DNA of 37,912 nt, taken from the IMG/VR virus record IMGVR_UViG_3300025781_000022, positions 1 to 37,912 of that record. The stretch is one strand, 5' to 3'. The notes beneath the pieces are model-generated. The model saw only the letters and a program-made list of their open reading frames with translations, did not search any database and was not told where the DNA came from. Numbering within the stretch: position 1 is the first letter of the stretch; each line of letters begins with the position of its first letter. This stretch comes from a virus. This document shows positions 20,601 through 37,912 of the stretch, in pieces. The translations under genes and the position numbers were made by a program.

Positions 20601-23600
20601 CAAACATTAGTTTGGTCTTCACTATCTAGAAATACTGTACAAACATATGGTTCTGGATCGTCATATCCAAATACAATTCGTATAACAGCAAGTACTGGTG
20701 GTAATCCTGTTACTCCAACTCTTGGTGCTACACTTGGTTTTTACGTAGGTATGCCAATACAATTTATTGGAGAAGCAGTTGGTAATTTAAGTAATTATAC
20801 AACATATTATGTAAAATCATTGGTACAGCTTCCTAATTTAACAACAGGTGTCTTAGAGGCAACAGGCTTTACTGTTTCAACTTCAATAGATGGTAATGGA
20901 AACCCTGGCTCAACATTTGCACTAACATCTGCTACTGTGCCAACAGCGGGATTATTAGCTTATCCTGGTGAAGTTACAAATCAAGCAATATTAACAATCA
21001 ACTATGATGGCATCAGAAATACAACAGCTACTACTGCTGGAACTAATTATGTTACAGTAGAGTTAACACCAACAGGTCAAAATGGAACAACAAACTTCTA
21101 TGTTGGTCTTCCAATATTCTTTACAGGTGATGTGTTTGGTGGAATTGTTGCTAATGAAATTTATTATGTAACAACTGTAGTTGATCCACAGACATTTACA
21201 ATGTCTACAAGTGCTGACCCATTAATGGTAAACGTTACGGCAACATCTTCAAGCAACAACGCAATCACTTGCGATAGTACGTTGGGCTTGTCTGTAAATA
21301 CACCTATTATATTTACTGGAACTGCTGTGGGTAATCTGCAAACAGGTATTACTTATTATGTAAGCCAGTTATTTTCTGGGACAAAGAACACTCAATTTTC
21401 TGTGTCATTAAGTATCAACGGCCCTGTAGTAACATTAACTACTGCAACTGCACCACTAGATCCTGTATTTGGCACATCACTTCTTACATTTACAAGCCAA
21501 GCTAATACATTAAAATTAACTAATGGTACTGGCTCAATGACGTTGAATGTTAATTTAAGTATTAATCCTGGACAAATTCAAGGACAACAATTTACAGCAT
21601 ATAATACTTCAGGTGTGTATACCGGTGTAAATGGTACATTAAACACATCTAGTTTATTGAACATAAATCTTACAGCTACATTGGCAACAGTTAATAGAGT
21701 TTGCTTGAGTCAAACTGGACCTGGAATAACCAACATTTATACTAACATGCAATTTAATGTTAGTGGTAATATTGGTGGATTAACTACTGGAACAGAATAC
21801 ACAGTCGTAAACACTGGAGTAACTTCAGTTCAGGTGTTAAGCACTAGTAGCACTGGAAATTGGTTAACAGTTAATGGTACTAATTCAACTGATGTATTAT
21901 ATGTTGGCATGCCGATATACTTCTCAGGAACATCATTAGGTAATGTTTTATTAAATGTAATTTACTATGTACATAGCATTGATAATAGCCCTCCAAGCGG
22001 TGAAGGAAGATTTACTATAGCTACTTCAGTTGGAAGCTCATTACCGTTATCAGTATCTAACGATACAGGTAGTATGACTGGTACAGGTGACCCATATGTT
22101 GTGTTAAGCAACACTTTAACAAATGCAACAACTAATACAATTTCATTAACACAATATATTAATCCAAGTAACTATGCAAGTTTTGACGTTAGTTATATTT
22201 TAGGTGGATACAATGTGGCATTTTCAAGTGCAGGTGTTGGATACGCAATAAACAATACCATTGTAATACCTGGTACTTCAGTAGGAGGAACTACACCGGC
22301 AAATGATTTAACATTAACTGTGTCCGCAATTAATAGTACAGGTGGTATTACTGGAACTATTGCAACAGGTGTAACACCTGGATTGGACAACAAATATTAT
22401 GTAGATGTAGTAGACGTAAATCAAATTGCACTATACAGCGATCCTAACTTGAAGGTATCAGTGAGTGGACAAAACTTACCATATAAAGGAATAACAAGTA
22501 CAACTGCAACACAAACTGCAACCACTGGTAATGTTATTACTGTTGTAAGCAATACTGAATTTAATATCAATGATCCTGTTGTGTTTACGGGAACTGTATT
22601 TGGCGGTATAACAATTGGTCAAACATATTATATTCTAACTAAACCTACATCAACGACTATAACTATTAGTACAAGTATCGGTGGTAGTGCATTTACAATT
22701 ACAACAAATGCAACTGGATCAATGACAATGGCTAAGTCAGGTGATTACTTATTATTACCAGAACCATTCTATTTTAACAGTAGTATTGTTAAGTACAATA
22801 ATAATGTTTACCAATGTATTGTAAGTAATAATGATGCTGACTTCATTTTTGGTAAATGGGAATTATTAACTTCAGGTTCAAGTAAACTTAATGCGCTTGA
22901 TAGAATTATTGGTTACTATCAACCAACTGTTGACATGCCAGGTGTAGATTTAACACAATTGGTAACAGGTATTACTTATCCAAATAGTACGTATTTAGGT
23001 AATGCATTTGCACCGGCTGATAATTATCCGTTAGATACTATCTTACAAGACCAACCATTTTACCCAACTGGCATTAATTTATCAGCAGTATTATATAACA
23101 ACCATGCTTATATCGCAACAAGTGATTCGGGTAACAACTCATCAATTAATGCTAGTGTTGACGGAGTAACATGGTCTAGCCTACAGTTAGCTAATACACC
23201 AATTGGTTTATATGACATTATATATGTTGATGGTGAATATGTACTAACAGGAAACAATAGTGCTACTCCAATATTAATAAGTATTGATGGCACAACCTTT
23301 AGTACTCCATCAACTGTAGTACCTTCAACTGGATTAAGCAGTATTGCATATGCAAATGGTTTATATGTTGCAGTAGGAAAAAATATTGTTACTGCAACAG
23401 ATATTAATGATTGGAAACAACGTTATGAATTTACTGGCACATTAGAAAATAATTTGACAGGAGTAACATATGCAAACACAGCAGGATTCACTGGATTTAT
23501 TGCTGTTGGTTCAGGGCAAGTTTCAACTAATTTAGTTATCAATAATGTCGCAATTATTTTCTCTAGTAGAGATGGTATATCATGGAGTCCATTAACCTTT

Positions 23601-26600
23601 ACTACTCAATATGGACTTAATTCTGTTGCAAGTAATATTGATACTATAGTTGCTGTTGGCCAAGGCGGTAGCATTTATACTACATTTAACACGTATACTT
23701 GGTTTGTACAAACATCAGGTACAACTGAAAATTTAAACAAAATTATATGGGACAACATTAATAATAGATTTGTGGCTGTAGGTGATAATGGTGCCATAGT
23801 GTACGGAACAGTTGACGGTACAACTTGGACTACACAAACTTCAGGCACAACGCAAAACTTAAGAAGTGTTACATACAATAGTGATACTAATGAATATCTT
23901 GTTGTAGGAGATAACAACACGGTATTACAGGGTAACACATCTGGTTGGACAATAGGTAGTATATTTAGAAATCCACCTACTGTATACGATGTACAAGGTG
24001 ACTCATTTACTAGTGGTTATGGTCCAGAAGAATTGGTACCTGGTGTGGTAAGCGACACATTAACAATGACAGTAGCTACACGTCCTGGTACAAACTGGGA
24101 CGCCACAGTATATCAAAACCTAGGTTATGGCACTAAATCAATTGAGATACAGGCAACTAGCGGTACTCAAACTGAATATAGTTTTGCAAGTATAGCTACA
24201 ACTCCAAGCGAATTAGCTGTATATGTTACAAGTTATACGACTGGTTTAAGCACAAGAGTTTACGAAGAAAACGGATTCTATACCGTTGATTGGGTAAATC
24301 AATTAATCATATTGACAAACTCATTGTCATTTACAAGCCCTGGCAACGCAGATTCATTACGTATTGATTTGTATGAAACTGGTAACGGTGACCAATTGGT
24401 TAAATCTAGTACGAGTAACAATCCAATTAGAACAAACGAAACTACTGGCTTCCAAGAAATTTACTTAAATGCAAATTATAGTGCAAGTATCTATCAAGGT
24501 TCAGGGGTTATCAGACCAGGATCACAACCCTACATTGCAACTGCAACACATACTGATTCAACCACAAATCAAATAACGCTTGATACAGTGGCTAATATTG
24601 CATTAAACAACGTAATAACTTTTGAAGGAACTGTGTTTGGTGGTGTTGCAATAGAAACTCCTTATTACGTAAAAACAATTGATGACATATCAAATAGAAT
24701 TACTATATCAACAAGTATCAATCTTTCTACAGGTACAGCAGGTGTTACTTTTGATTTAACTACAGCAAGTGGTAGCATGAAAGCTATCTCTCAAAATGGT
24801 GATGGTGTTGTTTGGACTCCACCAGCGGTATACCATAATGGTAATTTATTAGTATTGGGTGAATCTGGTATAGTTACAAATACACTTTCTTTTGATAATT
24901 TAATAATTGTTAATTCAACATATAACTTTGTACCCAATATGCCAATTACGTTTGGTCCCGGTATTTTTGGTGGAATTACTCCATACATAACATACTACGT
25001 TAAACAAATATTAGGATACGATAGAATCACCATTAGTGAGACTGCAGGTGGTCCAGTATTTGTTGTGTCAACTGAATCAGGTGTAGCAACTTATATATCT
25101 AACGACTTTGCATTAGGTATAGCAGATAATGGAATTAACGCTAAGATTATTCTTGCACAAACATACAACACAGCAGTAGATTATATTAGCTATACTGTAT
25201 TGGGACAAACATCTCCTATACAATATGGTTACACAATACCACAAACACAAGTGTTCTTTGGTAATGCATCTAAATCAACATTTAATTTGGTAAACTATTG
25301 CGGTGGTGACAATCCAAACAATGCAATTGTAGAGATTAATGGCTTACGTCAAACAATAGGATTATATTCAATTAATAGTTCAACAAATACTATTTTGTTC
25401 TATACTCCGCCCCTATTAAACTCAACGGTAGCAGTTACTACATATAACTTAACTGACCGTCAATATTTAAATACTCAATATGGTATCACTGGAAGTCCTG
25501 GCTCAGTATTTGTTGAAGTTGTAGTTGGTGCTACTGTAAATACATTGGCTACATACGATGAAAATAGCCCAAATACATATACATATGATGAAAATAATCC
25601 ACAAATTGTAACATATGACGAACAATTTAATTACTTACATTTGAGTACAGGTACTACGGCAGATTTAACTGTCAACAGCCCAATCGTGTTTTCATCACCT
25701 ACATTTGGTGGAATTATCGCCGGACAAGTTTACTATATTCTTCAAATATTAAATTCTACAGACTTTACTATTTCAACTCAAGTTGGTGGTGCTGTGTTCC
25801 CAGTTACTAGTGATACTGGTACAATGAACGGTTCATTGAATGGTTTAACTGTGGCTAATATTGTTAATATCGACAATGCCATTACCCCTGCAAGTTCAAC
25901 AGTATTAGTATCTCAAACAATTTCCGGAACAAATGCAATTGTTTATAATGCGACACACCCAGTGGTACCGGGACAATTTATTATATTCAAAGCTCAAACG
26001 CCTGGCACATATGGGGGAATCAGTACAACTGGTGAATACTATATTGTAGGCACAATTATTGACGATACAAGTTTTACAATCACAGACCAATATGGTACAA
26101 CAATTCAATTGACTGATTATAGTACAGGAACTATTGTTGGATATGCAGGAGGTCAGCCAGCTATTCGTGTGACAACTGGAATTGACCATAATTTAGCTGA
26201 AAACTCATTGATACGTATAGATGGTACTGTTGGTTCCGTACAATTGAATAATAATGTATTTTATGCTAAAATAGTTACAAGTAAAATTATTGATTTGTAT
26301 CTACAAGCATATACTCCAACATTAAATGCCCCTAACTTCCCTGTAACTAATTGTTCAACATACATAGGTGATGGTTATGTTTGGTTAGATAGAGTGTTCA
26401 CACTTTCAAACACAAACACAACAGCAACAAATTCTACTGGTAATAGAATAACAGTGGTAAGCACACAAGGATTAATACCTAATACTCCTGTATACTTTAC
26501 TACTGTAAATTCAACTTTTGGTGACAATATTTTAGGTGGTATTCAAGCTGACGTAGAATACTATGTTTATGAAGTAAGTCCTATTACAACTGCAGGAAAC

Positions 26601-27814: not shown

Positions 27815-28435
27815 ATGTCAGTAATACAATTATCATATAAAGTAGAAGGCTTTCTAAAAGTATACGATCCTAACAACGGAGAAGTATTTGTGGAAAAGAA
27901 AAATGCCATTAATTATGAAAATATGTCAGAATCAATTGCTAACACATTAAGTAATCGTGGTTATGGTCAGATTTATGAAATGGCTTTTGGAAACGGTGGT
28001 GCAAGTGTAAGTGAAACAGGCGTTATTACTTATTTGCCCCCTAACGTATCTGGACAAAATGCGGCATTGTACAATCAAACTTACGCAAAAATCGTAGATG
28101 ATACTAGTGTTTTTAACTTGGATCCTACACGTAACAAGATGACAGTAACGCATACGACAGGTACAGTTTATACAGATATATTAGTTCAATGTTTACTAGA
28201 TTACGGTGAGCCCGCAGGTCAAGCCGCATTTGATAATAGTACACAAACTGATAGTTCTTATGTTTTTGATGAATTGGGCTTGCTCTCAAATTACGGTACA
28301 GATAATAACGGTAACGTTATTACTACTTTATTAACTCATGTGATTTTTCACCCAGTACAAAAGAGTTTGAATAGACAAATTCAAATCGATTATACTGTAA
28401 GAATACAGAGTTTAACTAATTTAATAACAATTTAA
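27815..28435 (+). CDS. Virion structural protein, 206 residues (baseplate/appendage)
   Basis: It begins with the VEGFLKVYDPNNGEVFVEKK hairpin, then NYENMSESIANTLSNRGYGQ, a Gly-rich FGNGGASVS turn, VITYLPPNVSGQNAALYNQT, and a LDYGEPAGQ...YVFDELGLLS segment. The Y/F-x-FDELGL motif and Gln/Asn/Tyr-rich beta composition fit small virion proteins encoded beside tail genes in marine T4-like phages. I cannot assign it to a named T4 product. gp8-like wedge function would fit the position, but the length is shorter than T4 gp8 (about 330 residues). No membrane segment or enzyme motif is visible. Confidence 0.65.
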   Translation: MSVIQLSYKVEGFLKVYDPNNGEVFVEKKNAINYENMSESIANTLSNRGYGQIYEMAFGNGGASVSETGVITYLPPNVSGQNAALYNQTYAKIVDDTSVFNLDPTRNKMTVTHTTGTVYTDILVQCLLDYGEPAGQAAFDNSTQTDSSYVFDELGLLSNYGTDNNGNVITTLLTHVIFHPVQKSLNRQIQIDYTVRIQSLTNLITI

Positions 28436-28466: not shown

Positions 28467-29726
28467 ATGGCATATTCGATTAATAAATTCAATGGGCAAC
28501 CACTAACTACCATTGCAGACGGTACTATCAACACAAATAGTACATCACTATACGGGTTACCCGGTCGTAATTATGCTGGTTATGGTAACGTTTTAGATAC
28601 AAACTTTGTTTGGCTAACTGAGAATTTTGCCAATGCAAGTCCTCCTCCTAACCCATTACAGGGCCAATTATGGTTTAATACAAATAATAACACACTAAAT
28701 GTTTGCCCTACAGACTATATCACCAATGCAAATGCTTGGTTGACATTAGCACAATCAGGTAGTTCAGGAACAACAACTTTTGGCACACTACAAGTTACAG
28801 GAAATTTAACAGCAAACAATGCTACAATCACTAATGCATTGGCAGCTGACACAATTACAGTACGTTTAGCAACTGTAACAAGCAATGCAAGTATTGCAAA
28901 CGCAAACGTTACAACAGGTAATATTGGATCATTATACACACAATTTATCAGTACTGGTTCACCATCTACAACAGGTAACATTGTTGGTGCTTGGACAGTT
29001 AATGGTTCAGCTTCACTAAATTCTCAGGGAGGAACCGCAGTATATATCACTGGTGGTAATTTATTGATAGGTAATGTAAATAGCCAAGGTGGCGGTAATA
29101 TTGGTATTAGAACAGATAACTATTATTATGCAAATGGTACACCTGTCAGCTTTGCAGGTACCTATAATAATGGTAACGTGTATGATTATTTGACAGGTAG
29201 CAACTCAGTATCACGTTTTAGTGGTTCGATTAGCGTTGCAAGTGTCACTACAGCAAACATTACAACTGGTGGAAATACAATTGCTGGTGCGCTTACTGGT
29301 AATTTTACATTAACAACAGGTTCAAGGTTACAAGCAACATACGCTGACTTAGCAGAACGTTTTGAAGCTGACCAAGAATATGAAGTTGGTACAGTAGTTG
29401 AAATAGGCGGAGAAAAAGAAATCACCGCAGTTAAATTGGATTTAAGCGACAATGTATTTGGTGTAGTTTCAAATACAGCGGCATATTTAATGAATCAAGC
29501 CGCAGGTTCAGATAAAACCCACCCTCCTATAGCACTCGCCGGTAGAGTAGAAGTTAAAGCAATTGGTCAAGTTAAGAAGGCTGACAGATTAGTAAGTGCA
29601 GGCAATGGCATTGCACGTGCCGCAAAAGCAGGGGAAGCTACACCATTCAACTCAATAGGTCGTGCATTAGCAGACAAAACCACAGACGAAATTGGTTTGG
29701 TTCTAGCAATCGTATCAATTAAATAA
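28467..29726 (+). CDS. Tail fibre/appendage protein with peptidase-G2-like C-terminal domain
   Basis: A 419-residue protein in three parts. Residues 1-75 (YSINKFNGQPLTTIADGTIN, then GRNYAGYGNV and PPPNPLQGQLWFN) match an N-terminal attachment module I associate with marine T4-like tail appendages. Residues ~95-290 form a Thr/Asn/Ala-rich shaft with short beta repeats (GTLQVTGNLTANNATI, SNASIANANVTTGNIG). Residues 292-419 begin YADLAERFEADQEYEVGTVV and continue with VFGVVS, AYLMNQ, ALAGRVEVKAIGQV and ADRLVSAGNGIA. This resembles the peptidase G2 type of C-terminal autoproteolytic chaperone domain, which trimerises fibres and can then cleave itself off. Whether cleavage occurs here is not visible. 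GGAG precedes the ATG. Confidence 0.75.
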   Translation: MAYSINKFNGQPLTTIADGTINTNSTSLYGLPGRNYAGYGNVLDTNFVWLTENFANASPPPNPLQGQLWFNTNNNTLNVCPTDYITNANAWLTLAQSGSSGTTTFGTLQVTGNLTANNATITNALAADTITVRLATVTSNASIANANVTTGNIGSLYTQFISTGSPSTTGNIVGAWTVNGSASLNSQGGTAVYITGGNLLIGNVNSQGGGNIGIRTDNYYYANGTPVSFAGTYNNGNVYDYLTGSNSVSRFSGSISVASVTTANITTGGNTIAGALTGNFTLTTGSRLQATYADLAERFEADQEYEVGTVVEIGGEKEITAVKLDLSDNVFGVVSNTAAYLMNQAAGSDKTHPPIALAGRVEVKAIGQVKKADRLVSAGNGIARAAKAGEATPFNSIGRALADKTTDEIGLVLAIVSIK

Positions 29727-29744: not shown

Positions 29745-30698
29745 ATGTCATACGCACAATACGGAACAATTCAAGCTAGTGACTATAATGCACTAGTAGG
29801 TGGCGATCCTGTCACTACATCAGGTGCATTAAACACAGTATGGGCAACCGGCGGCTCAACCGCAGGTTATGGTCAAACTGCATTAGCAAACGTATCTGCA
29901 GGTAATTCAGTTTTTGCTAGTGATTGGGCTAACTTAGTTAATAAAACTTCTAATGCCGCTTCACATCAAGGCACAAGTATCACAGCAGTTACTGCTCCAG
30001 TTGTGGGCGGTGTTATTACTTATTTGTCAGCTATCCCTACAAACTTAACATCAATCTATTCACCTAGATTAAATGCAGCCAGTCAAGGAACCACTGTTGC
30101 TAACACAGCAACTTATGGTAGTACTTGGTCAACTGCATTGACATTTACTCACACAATTACTTTTGCAAACGGTGATGCCGCACGGTATTTCTTTAACTCA
30201 GGTGGACAATTAAAAATTACATGTAGTAATCCAAATAATACTTCGGGTATTAACTTACTAATGAACCAATTAGCAAGTAACGTTGGTACAATTGTAATAA
30301 GCGCACCTAGTTCAGGTACAGCAACAATTGCAAGTACATCGTATAGCGGTGTTCAAAAAGTTGGTGGAGGTGGTAATTCACCAACTGTATTAACAAATAA
30401 CGGATATTATGCATTAACAACAAGCAATGCTAACGTGTTTACACAAACAGCGACAGGTAGCCCTTCAGGTTATGTAAACACATTTATTCGTGTTGTTGCT
30501 AAATCAAATGGTACGCAAGGTTCACACAGTGACACAGGTAGTGTTATTACTTTATACACAATTTGGGACGAGATTCCTGGTGGCTTAACTGTTGGTACAG
30601 GTTCTGCTACAACAGTAACAGCAGTTGTTCCAGAAACAACATACTTAAGTAATACTTGGGGTACAATTACTGTAACCGGTACTGTTTCGGGTTCATAA
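29745..30698 (+). CDS. Virion appendage protein, 317 residues
   Basis: It starts MSYAQYGTIQASDYNALVGG, then LNTVWATGGSTAGYGQTAL, NVSAGNSVFASDWANL and a SHQGTSI motif. I recognise this N-terminal order from virion or fibre proteins of marine T4-like phages. The remainder is a Ser/Thr/Gly beta-rich domain (FANGDAARYFFNSGGQLKI, SGTATIASTSYSGVQ, YTIWDEIPGG) with no enzyme motif. AAGGA at 29730-29734 lies 10 nt before the ATG. It follows the fibre gene by 18 nt and is the last clearly structural gene before the accessory operon. A role at the distal tail or baseplate is inferred. Confidence 0.65.
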   Translation: MSYAQYGTIQASDYNALVGGDPVTTSGALNTVWATGGSTAGYGQTALANVSAGNSVFASDWANLVNKTSNAASHQGTSITAVTAPVVGGVITYLSAIPTNLTSIYSPRLNAASQGTTVANTATYGSTWSTALTFTHTITFANGDAARYFFNSGGQLKITCSNPNNTSGINLLMNQLASNVGTIVISAPSSGTATIASTSYSGVQKVGGGGNSPTVLTNNGYYALTTSNANVFTQTATGSPSGYVNTFIRVVAKSNGTQGSHSDTGSVITLYTIWDEIPGGLTVGTGSATTVTAVVPETTYLSNTWGTITVTGTVSGS

Positions 30699-30723: not shown

Positions 30724-30731
30724 TATAAATA
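30724..30731 (+). promoter_or_regulatory. T4-type late promoter, perfect TATAAATA, opening the accessory operon
   Basis: Exact match to the T4 late-promoter consensus TATAAATA, 19 nt before the ATG at 30751, with AGGAGAG (30737-30743) 7 nt before that start. A TATAAT at 30703-30708 could be a host-type -10 box, but I see no convincing -35 box. This is the best promoter candidate in the window and heads about 7 kb of coupled genes. Confidence 0.75.
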
Positions 30732-30736
30732 CTCAT

Positions 30737-30743
30737 AGGAGAG
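30737..30743 (+). promoter_or_regulatory. Strong Shine-Dalgarno AGGAGAG
   Basis: AGGAGAG with a 7-nt spacer to the ATG at 30751 is the strongest ribosome site in the window. It fixes that start and is placed to load ribosomes on the coupled genes that follow. Confidence 0.75.
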
Positions 30744-30750
30744 TATATAC

Positions 30751-31056
30751 ATGGACACAAAGACATTAATTAACGAAGCCAAAGCACGTTTCAATCATAA
30801 CTCAGCCAAAGCCTATTTAAAAGACAAATACGACAGCAAACTTATTGTTGCCGAACAAAATGGTCTTTGGCGTGCTGATTTAACAACCATCAATTTTTTG
30901 AATTCAAGCAAGTCAAAAGAAGTAATTCTTATTGACACTTTTAACAATCCTGTCAAAGTAGACAGAAAAACATTGTTAGCCAAATTACAAGATACTTATA
31001 CAACAGTAATGAGTGATTGGCACGATGAATGGACAGAACTAGAGAATAACAGATGA
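30751..31056 (+). CDS. Conserved-looking 101-residue protein of unknown function
   Basis: Highly charged and soluble. NEAKARFNHNSAKAYLKDKY at the N-terminus is helical, then KLIVAEQNGLWRADLTTINF and EVILIDTFNNPVKVDRK form a likely beta sheet, and the C-terminus is helical and acidic (MSDWHDEWTELENN). The wording is familiar from hypothetical proteins near structural genes of marine T4-like phages, but I know no function. It is first in the operon, has the best ribosome site, and its stop overlaps the next start in ATGA (31053-31056). Confidence 0.7.
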   Translation: MDTKTLINEAKARFNHNSAKAYLKDKYDSKLIVAEQNGLWRADLTTINFLNSSKSKEVILIDTFNNPVKVDRKTLLAKLQDTYTTVMSDWHDEWTELENNR

Positions 31057-31856
31057 GCCAAGGGGTACTATTATTCGCCTTTAATAGTCCAAAATACAAT
31101 TATTACGAAATGGCAGTGGCTACTGCTAAACGTATTAATCACTTTTTGGGACTTCCAGTTACATTGGTAACGGATGAAGAGTCATTGCCACAAAATCAAA
31201 CTTATATTTTTGATAATACCATTATAACCACAGCCGATAAAACCAATAGTCGTGAATGGGGTGTGTGGATGAATAAAGGTAGATTTCGTGCTTATGACTT
31301 AAGTCCATATGATGAAACAATACTATTGGACACAGATTACATGGTTAATTCAGATAAGTTGTTAAAACTTTTTGAATTGCCAACAGATTTTTGTTGCCAT
31401 GATTCTACTAGTTTTTTAATGCATCCAAACTCTGACCAAGACATGATTAGCGTATATAGTTTTAAGACTATGTGGGCAACTGTTGTAATGTTCAAAAAGA
31501 CAAATCGTGCTAAACAAATATTTGAATGTTTAGAAATGATTCAATCTAATTACGACCACTATGCAACATTGCACGGTTTTATTTCTATTACATTTAGAAA
31601 TGATTATGCACTAACATTAGCCGCACGTATTACCAATGGTCATACTTCTCCTACCGAAGATATTATTCCATGGAATTTGGTACACGTTGGTAAAAACACA
31701 AGTGTATACAGAAACAATGATGATGAATTCAACACAGAATATACCGTTATGTTTGATAACTGGACTAAAGGAAAAATTCGTAAAGAATATTCAATGGTTA
31801 AAGATACAGACTTTCACATGATGAACAAAGATAATTTTATGGAGCTTATAGCATGA
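31053..31856 (+). CDS. Putative GT-A-fold glycosyltransferase-like protein (DxD present)
   Basis: 267 residues. The N-terminus VLLFAFNSPKYNYYEMAVAT, then a PVTLVTDEE strand, is the usual Rossmann-like opening of GT-A proteins. SPYDETILLDTDYMV places a D93-T-D95 motif where these enzymes bind a metal ion and a nucleotide sugar. Later, MWATVVMFKKTNRAKQIFE and NDYALTLAAR match the acceptor-side helices of such proteins. No membrane anchor is seen, so it should be cytosolic. It shares the SPYDETI-x-L segment with the next protein and is probably its paralogue. Donor and acceptor are unknown. Translation is coupled by ATGA overlaps at both ends. Confidence 0.65.
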   Translation: MSQGVLLFAFNSPKYNYYEMAVATAKRINHFLGLPVTLVTDEESLPQNQTYIFDNTIITTADKTNSREWGVWMNKGRFRAYDLSPYDETILLDTDYMVNSDKLLKLFELPTDFCCHDSTSFLMHPNSDQDMISVYSFKTMWATVVMFKKTNRAKQIFECLEMIQSNYDHYATLHGFISITFRNDYALTLAARITNGHTSPTEDIIPWNLVHVGKNTSVYRNNDDEFNTEYTVMFDNWTKGKIRKEYSMVKDTDFHMMNKDNFMELIA

Positions 31857-32602
31857 GTAAAGGGTTTGTAATCATGGCTCAGGATACCGAGCAAACAAAA
31901 TATACAAAATGTGCTGAAGCATTAAGTAAAAGCATACTACGTGTAATGCCTAATGCAAATATTACAATTATAACCAGTGATATGTTACCATATGGAGATT
32001 TAGGTGGATATCAAAATGATTGGCAAGTATATGAGGCTAGCCCATATGATGAAACAATCAAATTAGAAAGTGACATGTATATACCACGCAGTATAGAGCA
32101 CTGGTGGGATATTTTGGCATTACAAGATGTTGTTGTATCAACTACAATTAGAAATTACAAACAAGAAATTTCAGATGCAAGAACCTACCGTAGATTTATT
32201 GATGATAATAAATTACCAGATGTATACAATGCCATAACATACTTTAAAAAATCTGACACAGCAAAAGCATTTTTTGAAGTTGTTAAAGATGTATTTGAAA
32301 ATTGGGAAACGTATAAAGCTACACTAAGATGTAAACCGCAAGAAGAAGTTAGTACAGATTGGGCATATGCTATTGCATGTCATATTGTAGGAGTTGAAAA
32401 AACAACATTACCTTCATTTAATGAAATGAGTATGGTACACATGAAACAGTTTGTAAACAACAACCCAACTGAAAATTGGACAGACACATTTGTGTACGAA
32501 TGTTTACCAAACCAAATTAGAGTGCAAACAGTATCACAACAATATCCATTTCACTATCATATTAAGAATTTTTCTGATAAAATACTGGAAAGCATAAAAT
32601 GA
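31853..32602 (+). CDS. Putative GT-A-like protein, paralogue of the previous gene, altered DxD
   Basis: 249 residues with the same architecture as its neighbour: GFVIMAQDTEQTKYTKCAEA, then NITIITSD, then SPYDETIKLESDMYIP. The expected D-x-D reads E72-S-D74. After this come NAITYFKKSDTAKAFFEVV and EEVSTDWAYAIACHIVG, equivalent to VVMFKKTNRAKQIFE and NDYALTLAAR in the first copy. E-x-D variants occur in active GT-A enzymes, but the change could also mean a non-catalytic partner of the first protein. The ATGA overlaps at 31853 and 32599 keep the pair and its neighbours coupled. Confidence 0.6.
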   Translation: MSKGFVIMAQDTEQTKYTKCAEALSKSILRVMPNANITIITSDMLPYGDLGGYQNDWQVYEASPYDETIKLESDMYIPRSIEHWWDILALQDVVVSTTIRNYKQEISDARTYRRFIDDNKLPDVYNAITYFKKSDTAKAFFEVVKDVFENWETYKATLRCKPQEEVSTDWAYAIACHIVGVEKTTLPSFNEMSMVHMKQFVNNNPTENWTDTFVYECLPNQIRVQTVSQQYPFHYHIKNFSDKILESIK

Positions 32603-32970
32603 CAGTCAGATACGTAAAAGACAAAAACGCAGATTTTCTTATTGTTTGGGAACCACCTGTTATGGTGCCTCCCGAATTTAGATTATATTATGACGATAAA
32701 GGTAATGTTATTTCATATGTAGGAGATAAATCCTGCCATATTGAAGGTGGTAACTATATTGTTATCGATAAACAAACATTTGCCGAAGCCCGTCATGATA
32801 TAAAAGTTATTGATGGTAGAATTTCAACAGCGAAAGCAGATGCTGTTGTTTATAAATTAATGCCAAGCAATGACGGAATCAGTTGTTATAGCGAGGATGT
32901 AAGTATCGTAGTTGACGAATCATTTAATGATAAAATGAAATGGAAACTTACTATATATGAACTCGGATGA
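32599..32970 (+). CDS. Unknown 123-residue protein
   Basis: No family recognised. Beta-rich start (VRYVKDKNADFLIVWEPPV), then FRLYYDDKGNVISYVGD, then GGNYIVIDKQTFAEARHDIK with VIDGRIS, and a C-terminal strand-rich tail ending in KWKLTIYELG. No membrane segment, signal peptide, metal-binding Cys/His set or nucleotide motif. It is coupled on both sides: ATGA with the gene before it, and a 14-nt overlap with the gene after it. That strongly suggests it works with the transferase-like proteins around it, perhaps as an accessory or substrate-binding subunit; this is inference. Confidence 0.6.
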   Translation: MTVRYVKDKNADFLIVWEPPVMVPPEFRLYYDDKGNVISYVGDKSCHIEGGNYIVIDKQTFAEARHDIKVIDGRISTAKADAVVYKLMPSNDGISCYSEDVSIVVDESFNDKMKWKLTIYELG

Positions 32971-33910
32971 TATTATTGATGTAGCAGACTTAGATTGCAT
33001 TTATCTTAGTTATGATGAACCACAGAAAGAAGAATTCTGGTTAAAGATTAAAAACATGGTACCTTGGGCCAAACGTGTTGACGGTGTCAAAGGTAGTGAT
33101 GCCGCACATAAAGCCGCAGGTGAAGCCAGTGAAACAGAACGTTTTATTCTTATTGATGGCGATAATATGCCACAAGAAAATTTCTTCAACATTCAACTAG
33201 ATTTTACTGATAAAGAGGAAACATTTAAAAAAGCACAGTTTCGTTGGAAAGCTATCAATGCTATCAATGGGTTACGTTATGGTAACGGTGGTATGAGTAG
33301 TTGGACAAAAACATACGTGCGTGAAATGCAAACACATGAAAATCAAACAGAAGGTGATATAACACGTATTGCTGATTTTTGTTTAGATAGTAAAGATAAT
33401 CTATACTGGGCTATGCATGATTGTTATTCAACTACATATCCAAATCAAACTCCCTTCCAAGCATGGCGTGCTGGATTCCGTGAAGGTGTTAAGATGTGTT
33501 TAGACAAAGGTGCGGTACCCTCAGTAGATGTATTCAAAGAAACTGTAGCCATGCGTAATATGAATAATCTAACAATTTGGCATAACATTGGATTAGATGC
33601 CGAAAACGGAGAATGGGCAATCATGGGCGCACGTATGGGAACGTACATGACAATGCTGACTGACTGGAATCATATTGAAGTTCAATGGTTTGATAACTAT
33701 CTTGCAATGTGGGAAAATGTTAAAAATGAAGATCCATTACAGTTAATTAAAAAGTACGGAGATGATTTAAGTGCTAAGTTAGGTTTACCTATGTGTATGC
33801 ATACCGCAGAACAAAGTAAGTTTTTCAAACGCCACTATAAAGCAGATGCACGTAATTTAGGACCATTGGTAACAGAAATGGAAGTCATTCGCAGAATCGA
33901 AGGTTGGTGA
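32957..33910 (+). CDS. Putative GT-A-like glycosyltransferase, phage family with DGD motif
   Basis: 317 residues. After a short acidic start comes CIYLSYDEPQKEEFWLKIKN, then MVPWAKRVDGVKGSDAAHKA and TERFILIDGDNM, placing D67-G-D69 at the end of a beta strand as in GT-A DxD enzymes. I recognise the order YLSYDEP, VPWAKRVxGVKG, AAHKAA, ERFxxxDGDN from uncharacterised proteins of T4-like marine phages. The C-terminal half has FQAWRAGFREGVKMCLDKG and NLTIWHNIGLDAENGEWAIM. It is not close to the two smaller transferase-like proteins upstream. The ATG at 32957 overlaps the previous gene by 14 nt. Sugar donor and acceptor cannot be told. Confidence 0.6.
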   Translation: MNSDDIIDVADLDCIYLSYDEPQKEEFWLKIKNMVPWAKRVDGVKGSDAAHKAAGEASETERFILIDGDNMPQENFFNIQLDFTDKEETFKKAQFRWKAINAINGLRYGNGGMSSWTKTYVREMQTHENQTEGDITRIADFCLDSKDNLYWAMHDCYSTTYPNQTPFQAWRAGFREGVKMCLDKGAVPSVDVFKETVAMRNMNNLTIWHNIGLDAENGEWAIMGARMGTYMTMLTDWNHIEVQWFDNYLAMWENVKNEDPLQLIKKYGDDLSAKLGLPMCMHTAEQSKFFKRHYKADARNLGPLVTEMEVIRRIEGW

Positions 33911-33911
33911 T

Positions 33912-34586
33912 ATGGATTCTAAAAATGTGCTAAACTCTCAACTATTTGATTTAAACAAAAAAGGCACAATAATTATTGGAACTATGCGTTCTGGTTCTAA
34001 TTTTCTACGTGCATTAGTAGGTTCTAGACTAGCAGAGAGTAATATTCCTTATAATGATAATGGTGAGTATTTTACAGATAGATTTGATGTGGAAGGCACC
34101 GACGATGAATATTCATATTTCAACATGGTTGAAAAACTACAAAAAGTAACAGCTAATAACGATAGTTATAGTGTTGGCACAATTGTCTATACAGAATTAG
34201 ATATGATTTCATGCAATCCTAGTAGTTTTAAATGGTATAATGATAACTATCATTTAATTAAATTGTATAGAAGAAACTATATAAATCATTTTATGTCACA
34301 TTGTATTTTTTTGCATACCAATCGACAATACAAATATGATACTTTTTCGCAACTTGGTATGCCTTTACCAGTTAAGTATGATATACGTGAAATTAATAAT
34401 TTTATAAAGAAAATTCTAGAACTTAATAGATTTCCTTGCGACAATACACTGGTGTATGAAGACATAGAACCTGTGCCAATCGGTGAAGTGGTAAAAAATA
34501 TATACAATATAACTCCTAAAGAATTTTTTGCTGATTATGATAAGTTAGTAGAAATGTTTAATTTATTGGAATACAATGTCGGGTGA
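33912..34586 (+). CDS. Sulfotransferase-like P-loop protein
   Basis: 224 residues. IIIGTMRSGSNFL (residues 20-32) is the 5'-phosphosulfate-binding loop typical of PAPS-dependent sulfotransferases of the Stf0/carbohydrate class. HLIKLYRRNYINHFMS supplies R121 and S129 in the R-x7-S spacing of the 3'-phosphate-binding motif. Both cofactor motifs are therefore present in the right order. It has no membrane anchor, unlike Golgi enzymes. The C-terminal part (TLVYEDIEPVPIGEVVKNIY) resembles the Y-E-D/E-L segment of the family. It would use host PAPS to sulfate an acceptor, most likely a glycan given the GT-like neighbours. It starts 1 nt after the preceding stop and overlaps the next gene by 11 nt. 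Confidence 0.72.
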   Translation: MDSKNVLNSQLFDLNKKGTIIIGTMRSGSNFLRALVGSRLAESNIPYNDNGEYFTDRFDVEGTDDEYSYFNMVEKLQKVTANNDSYSVGTIVYTELDMISCNPSSFKWYNDNYHLIKLYRRNYINHFMSHCIFLHTNRQYKYDTFSQLGMPLPVKYDIREINNFIKKILELNRFPCDNTLVYEDIEPVPIGEVVKNIYNITPKEFFADYDKLVEMFNLLEYNVG

Positions 34587-36141
34587 GTACGACCAATATG
34601 CTAGAGACATGCGTGACCGCTTGAATGCGGTCAGTCCATCACTATGTCTCGCAAAATGGCAACAAGTTTCAATACACTTGCCAAGTGGATTAACACAAAG
34701 CTGTTACCATCCTCCTACGCATAAGATTCCACTAGAGTTATTAAAAGATAATCCTAGTGTATTACACAATACACCTATCAAAATACATGAACGCAAACAA
34801 ATGCTCAACGGTGAAAGACCTGAGGGTTGTAGTTACTGTTGGAAAGTAGAAGATGCACAAAGTGATGACCCCAAAGGTCACATGAGTGATAGACATTATC
34901 GCAGTAGTGAGTGGTGGAACGCACCAACATTTGACGAAGTAACAACAAATAGTTTTGACTATAATGTTACCCCTCGCTATGTAGAGGTTAATTTTAATCA
35001 AGCATGTAATTTCAAGTGCATGTATTGCAGTCCTCACCTAAGCACAAGTTGGGAAGAAGAAGTTAAAAAACATGGTGGGTATAAATTATCTGACATGACA
35101 CACAACAACTTAGAGCATTTGGAGAAAAAGGGACTAATGCCACTTAAGGTTGCGGCTAAAGATAATCCATATGTTGAAGCATTTTGGCAATGGTTTCCTG
35201 AGATTTATCGTAAGTTACGTGTTTTTAGAATGACCGGCGGTGAACCACTCATGGACAAAAACACATTTAAAGTATTAGACTATGTAAATGAAAACCCACA
35301 TGGTCAACTTGAATTAAGTATAACAAGTAACATGTGTCCTCCAGATCAAAAACTATTTGATAAGTTTTTAGAAAAAGTAAAGGCACTAGAAGAATTACGT
35401 ACATATGAAGACAAGGAAAACTTTAATGAGTTCAGCGGTAATCATTGGTATGTAGACAAAGGCTTCAAGCACTTTTGGTTGTTTGTATCATTAGATGGAT
35501 TTGGGGAACAAGCAGAATATATGCGTACTGGATTAGAGTTTGACAGATTGTTGAACAATGTTCGTACCTTTTTACGTGAAACAAAATACAGCACAGTTAG
35601 TTTTATCAATACATTCAACATGTTAAGCATTCCCAGCTTACATAAATTTTTAGAAATGATTTTAACACTACGTGAAGAATTTGGTGGACGTGCCCAAACT
35701 GAGTTTACAATCGCACCCGAACAAACTGAAACTGAAAAAGAAAATAATATTGTACACAAAGTTTATAAGCAAAAGAAATATCAACGTGTATTCTTTGACA
35801 TACCCATTCTACGTTATCCACCATGGTTCAGCATACAAAATGCAGGAGAATATGGTATCAAAGAAGTAGAACGTTGTTTGAAATATATGGAAGACAACGT
35901 ACAAGGTGAAGACTATTCGGAAACATTCGAAGGATTTAAACCCTATGAGATATTGAAAATCAAGCGAGACCTTGCTATAATGCAAGAATCTTTGCCAGCG
36001 GACCAAGTGTCACTAAATAAAACTAACTTCTACATGTTTATTAGTGAGTACGATAGACGTAGGCAAACAAATTTTATGGAAATATTTCCAGAACTAAAAT
36101 GGTACTGGAGAGAATGTATTAAAGCGTATACCAAACATTAA
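34576..36141 (+). CDS. Radical SAM protein with N-terminal twitch-like cysteine cluster (first of three)
   Basis: 521 residues. The radical SAM core is clear: ACNFKCMYC with C144, C148 and C151 for the [4Fe-4S] cluster, MTGGEPLM (GGE at 221-223) for SAM binding, SITSNM and a VSLDG strand. Before the core lie C24, C43, C85 and C88 (spacing x18, x41, x2) in CLAKW, SCYHPP and CSYCWKVED, which would hold a second iron-sulfur cluster. In most SPASM/twitch enzymes that extra cluster is C-terminal; here it is N-terminal, as in phage proteins named twitch domain-containing radical SAM protein. Such enzymes modify peptides or sugars by hydrogen abstraction. The ATG overlaps the sulfotransferase gene by 11 nt. 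The substrate is unknown. Confidence 0.85.
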   Translation: MSGEYDQYARDMRDRLNAVSPSLCLAKWQQVSIHLPSGLTQSCYHPPTHKIPLELLKDNPSVLHNTPIKIHERKQMLNGERPEGCSYCWKVEDAQSDDPKGHMSDRHYRSSEWWNAPTFDEVTTNSFDYNVTPRYVEVNFNQACNFKCMYCSPHLSTSWEEEVKKHGGYKLSDMTHNNLEHLEKKGLMPLKVAAKDNPYVEAFWQWFPEIYRKLRVFRMTGGEPLMDKNTFKVLDYVNENPHGQLELSITSNMCPPDQKLFDKFLEKVKALEELRTYEDKENFNEFSGNHWYVDKGFKHFWLFVSLDGFGEQAEYMRTGLEFDRLLNNVRTFLRETKYSTVSFINTFNMLSIPSLHKFLEMILTLREEFGGRAQTEFTIAPEQTETEKENNIVHKVYKQKKYQRVFFDIPILRYPPWFSIQNAGEYGIKEVERCLKYMEDNVQGEDYSETFEGFKPYEILKIKRDLAIMQESLPADQVSLNKTNFYMFISEYDRRRQTNFMEIFPELKWYWRECIKAYTKH

Positions 36142-36150
36142 GGAAAACAC

Positions 36151-37683
36151 ATGGCAGGTAAAAAACACACAGAAAGTTTTGCAGAGTATAAAGCACGATT
36201 GATTGATCCAATTAGTGAGAGTTATTGTGCGGCAAAATGGCTAAACGCAACTATTTGGTTGGGTAATGGTCAAACAACAAGCTGTCACCACCCATTAGGT
36301 CATCAAATTGATGCCAATGAATTGATTGAAAACCCTTCAGCAATTCATAATACTCCACATAAAAAACTTATGCGTAAAATGATGCAGGAAGGCACACGTC
36401 CACAAGAGTGTGAGTACTGCTGGAAGATTGAAGATATTGGTCGTAACAACATCAGTGACCGCGTATACAAGACTGCTGTATTTGAAGAAGAACATATTTT
36501 AAAAACTGCCAAAGCAGATTGGCAAGAAAACACAATGTTGCGTACATTAGAAATTAGTTTTGATAGAACATGCAACTTTGGTTGCAGTTATTGTAACCCT
36601 AGTTTTAGCACAACATGGGTAAAAGACATTCACAAGTATGGCCCATATCGTAACATCGATGGTGATGCCCGTAGTCACTTTGTTAATGCGGCAGACCACG
36701 CAAAGCCATTGCCTGATGAAGTTAACCCATATATTCAAGCCTTTTGGCGTTGGTGGGAACAAGAAGATGGTCTTGCAGATAACTTAGAAGAAATTCGCAT
36801 TACAGGTGGGGAGCCATTAATGGCTCCGGGCGTATGGAAACTATTCGAATGGTTCAAAGCAAATCAAGAACGTGTTAAAAATCGTAAAGATGGAAAAGTT
36901 ATGCGTTATGCGATTAACAGTAACTTAGTTCCTAAAGATGATATCATGGATAGATTGATTGAGTTAAGTCACTTTGTCCCGCACTTAGAAGTATACACTA
37001 GCGCAGAAAGTTTAGGCGCACATAGCGAATATATTCGTGATGGTTTCATTTGGGATAAATGGATTCATAATTTAACACGTTTACATACTGAAGGTAATAT
37101 CAAAAAGACACACATTATGATGACAATCAATAGTTTGTGTTTAGCAAGTATTACTGAGTTCATGGATGAAATACTAGCATTTAAGCGTAAGCATGACACT
37201 CACTATCCAACAATGAGTTTGAACATCTTACGTTTCCCTAGCTTTCAAAGTTGCTCATTATTGCCAATGGATGTTCGTCAAAAGTACAGCGAAAAACTAC
37301 AAGTATGGTTAGATGAACAAATTGCAAAAGATGAAAGAACAACAGGCGGTAGCCCAATTCTTATGCATATTGAGCGTGAGCAAACACAACGACTGATTGA
37401 CTATCTTGACGTTATTAAAACTCCGCACAAAAATGTTAAAGACCCTGAGCAAAACAAACGTGACTTTAAACAATTCTACCATCAATATGATATTCGTAGA
37501 GGTAAAGACTTCCGTAATACATTCCCGCAAGAGTTTGTAGACTTTTACGATAGTATTGACACAGACTTACCAACTGAAACAGAAATCACAACAGGTCAAT
37601 ATAGTGATGGTACAGGGTATATTCCAATTCATCCTGCTGAAGATCCTAGTAAAGATGTGTTTGTTAACCCAGATTTACAATGA
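36151..37683 (+). CDS. Radical SAM protein with N-terminal twitch-like cluster (second of three)
   Basis: 510 residues, a clear paralogue of the preceding protein. The core shows CNFGCSYC (C141, C145, C148), then RITGGEPLM and AINSNLVPKDD. The N-terminal cluster is C26, C45, C87 and C90, with exactly the same spacing (x18, x41, x2) as the first copy, and shares NPSxxHNTP and CxYCWKxED with it. The C-terminal ~40 residues are acidic and Pro/Thr-rich, absent from the first copy. AAGGA (36140-36144) overlaps the previous stop and lies 6 nt before the ATG; the stop overlaps the third copy in ATGA. Two such proteins with the same cluster layout could form a pair or act on successive steps. Confidence 0.85.
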   Translation: MAGKKHTESFAEYKARLIDPISESYCAAKWLNATIWLGNGQTTSCHHPLGHQIDANELIENPSAIHNTPHKKLMRKMMQEGTRPQECEYCWKIEDIGRNNISDRVYKTAVFEEEHILKTAKADWQENTMLRTLEISFDRTCNFGCSYCNPSFSTTWVKDIHKYGPYRNIDGDARSHFVNAADHAKPLPDEVNPYIQAFWRWWEQEDGLADNLEEIRITGGEPLMAPGVWKLFEWFKANQERVKNRKDGKVMRYAINSNLVPKDDIMDRLIELSHFVPHLEVYTSAESLGAHSEYIRDGFIWDKWIHNLTRLHTEGNIKKTHIMMTINSLCLASITEFMDEILAFKRKHDTHYPTMSLNILRFPSFQSCSLLPMDVRQKYSEKLQVWLDEQIAKDERTTGGSPILMHIEREQTQRLIDYLDVIKTPHKNVKDPEQNKRDFKQFYHQYDIRRGKDFRNTFPQEFVDFYDSIDTDLPTETEITTGQYSDGTGYIPIHPAEDPSKDVFVNPDLQ

Positions 37684-37912
37684 CCGATAACAGATATATA
37701 TGTCCATTGGCTTTTGGTGCTGTTCATTATGACATGGACAACAAAATGGGACCCTGTTCGTTAAACAACATGGTCAATGTCAAAACAATTGATGAATATC
37801 TGAAAGACGAAAAACTACAACAATTAAAATCAGACATGAAAAATGGTATTAGAAATCCATTATGTAATTCATGTTATAATTTAGAGGAGATAGACCAAAA
37901 TATTGGTAGCAA
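37680..37912 (+). CDS. Third radical SAM-family protein, N-terminal part only (cut by right edge)
   Basis: The ATG at 37680 overlaps the previous stop in ATGA and the frame is open to the edge, giving 77 complete residues. YICPLAFGAVHYDMDNKMGP is followed by C26, then NGIRNPLCNSCYNLEEI, so C8, C26, C62 and C65 reproduce the N-terminal four-cysteine pattern of the two preceding proteins with shorter spacing (x17, x35, x2). N/G-x-R-x-P-x-C-x2-C-[WY]-x-x-E is common to all three. The radical SAM core itself would lie beyond the window, so the call rests on the N-terminal cluster and gene order. Confidence 0.7.
   Translation, partial: MTDNRYICPLAFGAVHYDMDNKMGPCSLNNMVNVKTIDEYLKDEKLQQLKSDMKNGIRNPLCNSCYNLEEIDQNIGS

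Follow-up and report, generated by a model that had tools for sequence, protein, structure and literature searches.

Why would a phage keep a long run of radical SAM (rSAM) genes behind its tail genes, and on what would the encoded enzymes act? The question is raised by the window, the whole stretch of 37,912 nucleotides of viral DNA analyzed here (IMG/VR record IMGVR_UViG_3300025781_000022, positions 1 to 37,912). The initial annotation of its last part described nine coupled genes, among them genes for three glycosyltransferase (GT)-like proteins, a sulfotransferase, and three rSAM enzymes, and proposed that they form one pathway that glycosylates, sulfates, and radically modifies a virion protein or a surface glycan late in infection. 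Here, we report that the window holds only the start of the system and that the system is built of two modules, a fixed block and an exchangeable rSAM array.

The operon and its promoter-like element

Nine plus-strand ORFs are present in the window in the order first described. The first eight encode proteins of 101, 267, 249, 123, 317, 224, 521, and 510 aa. The ninth runs for 77 residues before the window ends and encodes 377 aa on a longer contig of the same phage, which overlaps the window over 14,956 identical bases. The genes are tightly coupled, as originally noted, with junctions of -4, -4, -4, -14, +1, -11, +9, and -4 nt. On the longer contig, one late-type promoter sequence heads a run of 22 same-strand genes, with junctions between -20 and +9 nt. 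Thirteen of the 22 are rSAM genes, ten of them beyond the window end. About 19 kb of phage DNA is given to radical chemistry in this late-looking operon, which lies behind gp25, gp6, and the gene for a 6337-aa virion protein (phrog_10938). The phage is an uncultured T4-superfamily phage, probably a jumbo phage of a betaproteobacterium. Its closest isolates in a gp6 comparison, with some 32-34% identity, are jumbo phages like RaK2, Atu_ph07, and Phosso.

At the head of the operon is a late-promoter-like octamer, TATAAATA (30724..30731, plus strand), followed by AGGAG ahead of the ATG at 30751, in keeping with the octamer and Shine-Dalgarno sequence reported earlier. The window contains this single exact copy against 8.4 expected from shuffling. 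Among 64 distinct upstreams of g1 in relatives, only 5 carry the exact octamer (0.4 expected), and we rejected it as the conserved promoter. Conserved instead is the TAAATACTCnTAGGAG context: TAAATA can be placed upstream of g1 in 52 of the 64, the context TCTAAATACTCnTAGGAG is conserved among these 52, and TCTAAATA is the form in most relatives in which the element can be placed. TAAATA is found inside genes too. Because it also lies 5-20 nt ahead of gp25 and gp6, a late-type promoter before g1 is plausible. Of the late expression first proposed, the promoter-type sequence stands, and we infer the lateness itself.

A fixed block linked to tail genes

Relatives of g5 were found in 381 candidate stretches of a viral collection. 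All five genes g1 to g5 occur together in 79 of 80 g5-bearing loci, and the order tail206-tail419-tail317-g1-g2-g3-g4-g5 is exact in 62 of the 77 loci having enough upstream DNA. One or more rSAM genes follow further along in 78 of the 80, directly after g5 in 61. Thus, the comparison with relatives that the initial annotation put forward as a check finds g1 to g5 and the tail genes held together. A distant phage group also has g2, g3, and g5, with g5 identity of about 39-47%.

The block begins with tail206 (27815..28435, plus strand, as are all genes below; 78/80 loci), a tail-region gene of unknown function that matches phrog_11259 (unknown function) at 227 bits. Next, tail419 (28467..29726; 79/80 loci) encodes a tail-fiber-like or virion protein, with matches to phrog_6427, phrog_14394 (virion structural), and phrog_19602 (tail fiber, E 0.0011). 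The product of tail317 (29745..30698; 79/80 loci), for which a PHROG search returned no match, is presumed from its position to be a tail appendage protein. Two small genes, g1 (101 aa; 30751..31056; 79/80 loci), the first of the operon, and g4 (123 aa; 32599..32970; 80/80 g5-anchored loci), are of unknown function.

The remaining three genes of the block encode the GT-A-like proteins, a labeling that the models and homology bear out. Specifically, g2 (267 aa; 31053..31856) has no Pfam family match. Its AF2 model (pTM 0.85) finds glycogenin-2 (4ueg) as the top Foldseek match at E 8.9e-8, and its DxD motif (D93/D95) is kept in 106 of 106 sequences. By predicted fold and DxD, g2 belongs with the GT-A, GT8/glycogenin-like proteins. 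Its paralogue g3 (249 aa; 31853..32602) aligns with g2 by blastp at E 1.7e-6 and 22% identity, and this homology supports a GT-A fold for g3 as well; in the [D/E]xD at 72-74, D74 is present in 107 of 108 sequences, and position 72 is E (65) or D (43). Finally, g5 (317 aa; 32957..33910) is predicted to have a GT-A-type domain at about residues 6-165 and a helical C-terminal part (AF2 pTM 0.81), with a DxD (D67/D69) kept in 109 of 109 sequences. The top Foldseek match of g5, and the sole one at E <= 0.001 among 604, is 2p6w (E 5.5e-4; query TM 0.28), whose title describes a glycosyltransferase that takes part in glycosylating the major capsid of PBCV-1. With one such match and this TM, g5 is placed in the GT-A fold at large rather than in a particular GT-A family. 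VIA-align pairs g5 with B4GALNT1 (Z 9.6, rmsd 3.1, 143 aligned), in rows that mainly span residues 3-167, on a scale on which nucleotidyltransferases sharing the GT-A fold reach Z of about 8.

Between block and array lies g6 (224 aa; 33912..34586), a putative sulfotransferase gene. The ORF is present as described, and we presume its sulfotransferase label from sequence motifs only. Pfam and NCBIfam searches gave no match at E <= 1, a PDB search with the single protein gave none, and a profile search gave one unrelated PDB match at 0.027. This accessory gene is found in 4 of 80 loci, and, with such rarity and a label drawn from motifs, sulfation is at most an occasional, putative step.

An exchangeable array of radical SAM genes

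The window ends with rS01 (521 aa; 34576..36141), rS02 (510 aa; 36151..37683), and the 5' part of rS03 (37680..37912). All three are radical SAM proteins, as first assigned: against the NCBIfam model NF033640 (N_Twi_rSAM, twitch domain-containing radical SAM protein; curated cut-off 170 bits), they score 288, 290, and, for whole rS03, 259.8 bits (35.5 for the cut form); rS01 and rS02 carry CxxxCxxC. Further along the contig, rS04 (295 bits), rS06 (283), rS11 (242), and rS13 (232), together with rS05 (345), rS09 (338), and rS10 (365), which were assigned by position, bring rS01-rS06, rS09-rS11, and rS13 above the cut-off. At 166 of 170 bits, rS07 falls slightly below it, and rSx12 is another kind of rSAM, not a member of the family (38 bits). 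Across 37 contigs, family matches number 2-20 per contig.

The cofactor ligands are conserved. Among distinct phage rSAM ORFs of at least 330 aa, CxxxCxxC is present in 597 of 597 and the N-terminal auxiliary-cluster Cys pattern in 569, in a set from which degenerate copies could be missed because the ORFs were collected with a profile of the NF033640 family. In the alignment of 12 rSAMs from the phage's own contig, Cys 19, 79, 82, 136, 140, and 143 are invariant, and 38 is nearly so. In a simple NG86 script for dN/dS, silent sites come close to saturation or exceed it, so we claim only strong purifying selection. Relatives of rS02 were found in 221 candidate stretches of the viral collection, and tblastn at 1e-5 against a phage collection gave no cultured relatives of rS02 or g5. 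At 1e-3, rS10 drew 21 weak records, the best two from Vibrio phages at 22.5% identity over 87%.

How did such arrays arise? Each of 508 rSAM ORFs that have an in-locus paralogue plus a <97% match in another locus is nearer to the gene in the other locus than to its own-locus paralogue (median identity 88% versus 31%). Paralogues in the same locus exceed 60% for only 4 of the 508 and 80% for none. Recent tandem duplication is thus rejected as the main source of the array. The order rS01-rS02-rS04 recurs, and the array type changes while the block remains about equally similar. At least four rSAM genes occur in the absence of g5 at 10 loci, 5 of which have more than 7 kb read upstream. Given this independent exchange, the arrays that lack g5, and the rarity of g6, we rejected the reading of all nine genes as one coupled pathway that includes sulfation.

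Possible substrates of the radical SAM enzymes

We tentatively favor late glycan tailoring, a possible role with nearly even prospects, in which the GT block attaches sugars and the rSAM array tailors the resulting glycan. The notion is that g2, g3, and g5, with the small g1 and g4, would glycosylate a substrate that is produced late in infection. The rSAM enzymes, with their N-terminal twitch-type auxiliary cluster, would then act on C-H bonds of the glycan, for example by oxidation, epimerization, or deoxygenation. Accessory genes may join in the tailoring: those for a carbamoyltransferase, an SGNH-hydrolase-like protein, and sometimes the sulfotransferase-like protein.

Structure matches point to more than one kind of substrate. 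A PDB search pairs the N-terminal part of the rSAM profile with residues 189-258 of BtrN (6e-6), an enzyme whose substrate is an aminocyclitol and whose own twitch is C-terminal. Cytosylglucuronate decarboxylase is in the same match list. The list also includes the peptide maturase SkfB, 5wgg, which we take to be the peptide-modifying rSAM enzyme CteB, and viperin, and these count against a glycan substrate. The loose tie between array and GT block and the single Foldseek match of g5 at E <= 0.001 weigh against the favored reading as well.

Gene neighbors were a limited guide. Within two genes of the rSAMs lie genes for an epimerase, NeuB, GDP-mannose dehydratase, UDP-glucose dehydrogenase, phosphomannomutase, mannose-P isomerase, a cytidylyltransferase-like protein, FkbM methyltransferase, and carbamoyltransferase, each in 1-3 of 109 representatives (best 25 of 54 families). 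On the phage's own contig, a carbamoyltransferase gene lies behind the array (Pfam 3e-48). NCBIfam assigns the neighbor set chiefly to FkbM methyltransferases (3 members) and to B12-binding and further rSAM models (2 members apiece). The control set, 109 of 118 families lying five or more genes away, likewise contains an epimerase, dTDP-sugar isomerase, carbamoyltransferase, and FkbM and C-methyltransferases among the best 25 of 121 families. Because distant control genes include sugar-type enzymes, the comparison does not show sugar-nucleotide genes to be enriched next to the array. Bacterial neighbors of the rSAM family (125 drawn at random from 214) are of mixed content, and we set them aside as a guide to function.

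Where would the glycan lie? A virion glycan, on the tail fiber, is slightly favored over a host envelope glycan, because the block is fixed to tail genes and shares its late-type promoter motif with baseplate genes. Remodeling of the host envelope (LPS or capsule), which would exclude competing phages, is a somewhat unlikely alternative. Sugar-nucleotide, methyltransferase, and carbamoyltransferase genes within the clusters are in keeping with it, and such a role was proposed for the glycosyltransferases of a comparable pelagimyophage cluster in the portion of PMC7029224 considered here. However, the baseplate-shared motif and the fixed tail linkage better suit a virion substrate, and no flippase or polymerase is among the matched families listed (best 25 of 54).

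It is unlikely that the rSAM array instead modifies protein directly, in parallel with glycosylation, introducing cross-links, epimerizations, or other side-chain changes in tail proteins (tail419, tail317, or the 6337-aa virion protein). The peptide enzymes in the PDB list would fit such a function, as would rS07, which matches several RiPP-maturase models, and the position of block and array next to tail genes. Yet a protein target is hard to reconcile with the exchange of arrays, across which the tail genes remain about equally similar, and with the arrays that, within the DNA read, lack the fixed block. Moreover, no small ORF (>=60 aa) recurring beside the array was seen by eye in 30 gene strips.

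Last, a role in auxiliary metabolism, or in providing the host with a cofactor such as PQQ, is very unlikely: a role of this kind was suggested for the rSAM genes of phage VP_139 (PMC7678222, in the passage concerned) and SAM synthetase is present in 4 of 22 related contigs, but PQQ alcohol dehydrogenase is present in 0 of the 22 (possibly fragments), and 13 strongly diverged rSAMs beside GTs in one operon would be unlike a known cofactor pathway.

Relation to described phages

The initial annotation knew of no described system with this combination. The present arrangement does differ from those in print, but the combination is only partly new because glycosyltransferases alongside rSAM cassettes (PMC7029224) have been published, as has a T4-like genome carrying 12 rSAM genes (PMC5332604). 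Specifically, the passages of PMC7029224 considered here describe the pelagimyophage host recognition cluster (HRC), a large variable island in the T4-type structural region between VrlC and the neck gene gp14, with tail fibers, radical SAM gene cassettes, and glycosyltransferases, of which GT8 is the most represented family. Tail fibers, glycosyltransferases, and radical SAM genes in a T4-type structural region are common to the HRC and the present cluster. The HRC is described as nonsyntenic, whereas here the GT block keeps a fixed place beside the tail genes, followed by a long and partly ordered rSAM array. In the same passages, the freshwater PMP-D group is without radical SAM genes.

The T4-like genome TARA_ERS488813_N000010 (183 kb) has about as many radical SAM genes as the present contig. 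Compared by description only, the passage on it in PMC5332604 concerns Fe-S cluster metabolism and mentions neither an array structure nor a GT block or a role in tailoring. The Lake Baikal phages VP_139 and VP_266, predicted Methylophilaceae viruses in the passage of PMC7678222, resemble the present phage by description in their 35% GC and T4-type character, and VP_139 also in its radical SAM and methionine adenosyltransferase genes. There, these genes were read as methanol/PQQ metabolism, in contrast to the present group, in which the PQQ alcohol dehydrogenase count given above was zero; methanol dehydrogenase, sought as a host marker, was likewise found in 0 of 22 contigs.

Outlook

These arrays, with up to about 20 matches per contig, comprise mutually diverged genes that keep the catalytic motif intact and lie beside a tail-linked GT block. 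A bolder idea, which we consider distinctly unlikely, is that they form a combinatorial library for radical tailoring. Each phage would combine the fixed, tail-linked GT module with an rSAM subset of its own, taken from a common pool of about a hundred old sequence groups. The virion or host-surface glycan made in this way would differ chemically from phage to phage and would determine host recognition or escape. The recurrent rS01-rS02-rS04 order offers biochemists a defined set with which to begin. Should the product prove to be a virion or host-surface glycan, the arrays would add a new chemical layer to phage-host recognition and a large supply of enzymes for unactivated C-H bonds.

Gene content of the cluster

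The nine same-strand genes of the initial annotation are all present in the window, eight of them complete and the ninth cut by the window end. The first six are g1-g6: g2, g3, and g5 are GT-A-like, g1 and g4 encode small proteins, and g6 encodes a putative sulfotransferase. Radical SAM (rSAM) genes follow. Specifically, two encode twitch domain-containing radical SAM proteins, NF033640 (288 and 290 bits; cut-off 170), and the cut ninth gene scores 35.5 bits against the same cut-off. In Pfam, PHROGs, and NCBIfam scans, g1, g2, g4, g5, and g6 received no confident name, and g3 weakly matched phrog_1903, a group of unknown function (3.5e-6).

The window covers only part of a longer contig, IMGVR_UViG_3300025417_000018 (103,401 bases), with which it shares identical overlaps of 11,762 and 14,956 bases. 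There, the rSAM run goes on past the window. Genes rS01-rS10, numbered along the contig, lie head to tail and are followed by rS11, rSx12 (a different rSAM), three SGNH-like genes, and rS13. From g1 to rS13, 22 genes span 22.8 kb (window-equivalent 30751-53579), with all junctions ranging from -20 to +9 nt. After a gap of 120 nt past rS13 come the fourth SGNH-like gene, a gene for a carbamoyltransferase (Pfam 3e-48), and one for a 1770-aa repeat protein. The SGNH name reflects a GDS-type motif that we take to be characteristic; GDSL Pfam matches are sub-threshold only (E 0.025-0.035), in two of the four genes. The 1770-aa protein (L166:9116-14428, on a piece of the longer contig; window-equivalent 56029-61341) has many repeats, by eye of the F.W.PDP..PPYIYVFGN type. 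It has no Pfam match and matches g5 (23.6% over 229 aa, E 2.4e-7).

Upstream of the operon lie genes for a gp5-like hub/lysozyme, gp25, gp6, and, directly after gp6, a 6337-aa virion protein (window 8634-27647). The N-terminal 4000 residues of this protein match phrog_10938 (virion structural protein; 818 bits); nothing matched the remaining 2337. The octamer TATAAATA occurs once in the window versus 8.4 copies expected from shuffles, and seems to be avoided elsewhere.

A fixed block of tail and glycosyltransferase-like genes

Relatives of g5 place g1-g5 in a fixed block with three tail-region genes, tail206, tail419, and tail317, directly upstream. Among 80 viral loci (the best 80 of 381 relatives, duplicates kept), g2, g3, and g4 are always present, g1, tail419, and tail317 occur in 79, and tail206 in 78. 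The exact order tail206-tail419-tail317-g1-g2-g3-g4-g5 is found in 62 of the 77 loci with enough upstream DNA; in the other 15, an ORF is doubled or inserted. An rSAM gene lies somewhere downstream of g5 in 78 of the 80 loci, and immediately 3' of g5 in 61, with another gene there in 15. The co-occurrence expected of the proposed nine-gene operon is borne out in relatives for g1-g5, but not for g6, which directly follows g5 in 4/80. A distant phage group retains g2, g3, and g5 (g5 identity ~39-47%).

AlphaFold models from alignments of relatives reached pTM 0.85 (g2) and 0.81 (g5). The g2 model resembled glycogenin and alpha-1,3-galactosyltransferases; its best E was 8.9e-8, and 281 chains had E <= 0.001. 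Over its N-terminal ~160 residues, g5 resembled GT-A enzymes less strongly. Its best Foldseek match, the sole one at E <= 0.001, is PDB 2p6w (E 5.5e-4), a glycosyltransferase that, by its entry title, takes part in glycosylating the PBCV-1 major capsid. VIA-align gave g5 a Z of 9.6 against B4GALNT1 (143 aligned, rmsd 3.1) versus about 8 against nucleotidyltransferases that share this fold. Neither DxD aspartate varies in g2 (106/106 sequences) or g5 (109/109). In the GT8-like paralogue g3 (window 31853-32602), the motif is [D/E]xD: of 108 distinct sequences, 107 retain the final D, and 65 have E in place of the first. This protein may bind metal differently or may partner g2.

Origin and exchange of the rSAM array

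CxxxCxxC is kept in all 13 rSAM proteins of the contig. In the 12 that were aligned (without rSx12), C19, C79, C82, C136, C140, and C143 are invariant, and C38 nearly so (rS10 numbering). Because of these cysteines, we presume, from family knowledge, two iron-sulfur clusters in each. Among phage-locus rSAM ORFs of at least 330 aa, collected with a profile of the same family that strongly degenerate copies could escape, CxxxCxxC occurs in 597/597 distinct sequences and the N-terminal pattern in 569/597. Family matches number 2-20 per contig (median 9) in 37 contigs mostly picked for length, counted at E <= 0.001 with the family cut-off not demanded; none of 14 well-known control genomes has a match over that cut-off.

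Paralogues within a locus are distant (median best identity 31%), exceeding 60% for only 4 of 508 testable genes. For all 508, a gene in a different locus is closer (median 88%, hits >= 97% excluded). At 50% single linkage, the pool forms 107 groups, 56 of them singletons. The closer relatives elsewhere, together with the distant paralogues, indicate that the arrays were put together chiefly from old lineages, each maintained on its own. Strong purifying selection acts on rS01, rS02, rS04, rS06, and rS11, because these retain 84-91% identity to their three nearest orthologues despite saturated or nearly saturated silent sites.

Part of the gene order recurs. Among 66 distinct rS02 loci (L001-L080, truncated loci kept in), 55 have the same-strand order rS01, rS02, rS04; rS05 follows in 39 of these, and g5 is upstream in 48. 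Of 64 loci whose g5 is distinct and >= 70% identical, 14 have the array type of our contig (that locus included) and 50 have another. The block resembles our own to about the same degree in both groups (median g5 identity 77.9% for own-type and 78.5% for other-type arrays), while rS01 identity drops from 88% to 35%. Four or more rSAM genes without g5 occur in ten loci; in five (L012, L013, L016, L017, L022), more than 7 kb were read upstream, and L012 and L016 look alike. The stable block beside a changing array, and the g5-less arrays, mark the array as a cassette that is exchanged separately from the GT block.

NF033640 arrays exist in bacteria too. One Elusimicrobia bin (~2.9 Mb) has at least 69 N_Twi_rSAM matches, with head-to-tail rSAM genes on several contigs (bin contigs L187, L190, L194, L198, L200, L203, L205-L208, L212, L217). 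The phage tail-GT-rSAM block also appears in five contigs filed under bacterial MAGs labeled Verrucomicrobia, Pelagibacter, Rickettsiales, Betaproteobacteria, and Rhodobacteraceae (L188, L197, L202, L204, L226); these look like phage contigs.

Relatives and host

Judged by gp6, the closest isolates to this phage are jumbo phages, e.g., Sinorhizobium Phosso, Klebsiella KP13-7, RaK2, and Agrobacterium Atu_ph07 (~32-34% identity), and several related contigs exceed 300 kb. The longer contig carries a permuted betaproteobacterial-type tmRNA (84209-84643; L166:18209-18643; window-equivalent 65122-65556; RF01850 134 bits, RF04321 139 bits) with the ARAGORN tag ANDSVYSLAA. RF01850 matches 18 of 22 related contigs at E <= 0.001, 11 over the family threshold. 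Since 5 of the 14 control genomes also match, all below threshold, only those 11 speak for the beta type. This tmRNA and the GC of 34-38% suggest a betaproteobacterial host. PQQ alcohol dehydrogenase, described for Baikal viruses VP_139 and VP_266 in PMC7678222, occurs in 0/22 related contigs.

Precedents and proposed function

The combination is partly known in phages. Pelagimyophages are described as having a variable host recognition cluster in which tail fibres and glycosyltransferases are accompanied by radical SAM cassettes (PMC7029224). Also reported are one T4-like environmental genome with 12 radical SAM genes (PMC5332604), a Baikal virus with radical SAM and methionine adenosyltransferase genes (PMC7678222), Tasman Sea phages with radical SAM and glycosyltransferase genes among their main AMGs (PMC7150976), and radical SAM genes in other phage contexts (PMC9301287, PMC10783043). 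'Moraphages' have four core glycosyltransferase groups (PMC12619734); the term 'radical SAM' does not occur in that paper. Full-text searches of open-licence PMC papers brought up no account of a tail-linked GT block with an ordered row of rSAM genes next to it.

A late-type promoter motif is the first link from sequence to mechanism. The glycosyltransferases, predicted by fold, and the rSAM enzymes, whose putative auxiliary cluster is read from family and ligands, would both act on one glycan. Sugar chemistry for the rSAM enzymes would agree with BtrN and cytosylglucuronate decarboxylase among their PDB matches, but peptide-acting relatives and viperin stand in the same list. Likewise, the clusters contain sugar-nucleotide, methyl-, and carbamoyltransferase genes, found in 1-3 of 109 representatives apiece, but sugar enzymes are also found among control genes further away. 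The g5 fold match to a virion-glycosylating enzyme argues for sugar chemistry as well; the mixed bacterial neighbours of the family argue against it. As the site of a shared glycan, the virion is only slightly favoured over the host envelope, because the tail linkage is fixed and the promoter motif is present. The gene cluster itself is real, conserved, and unusual.
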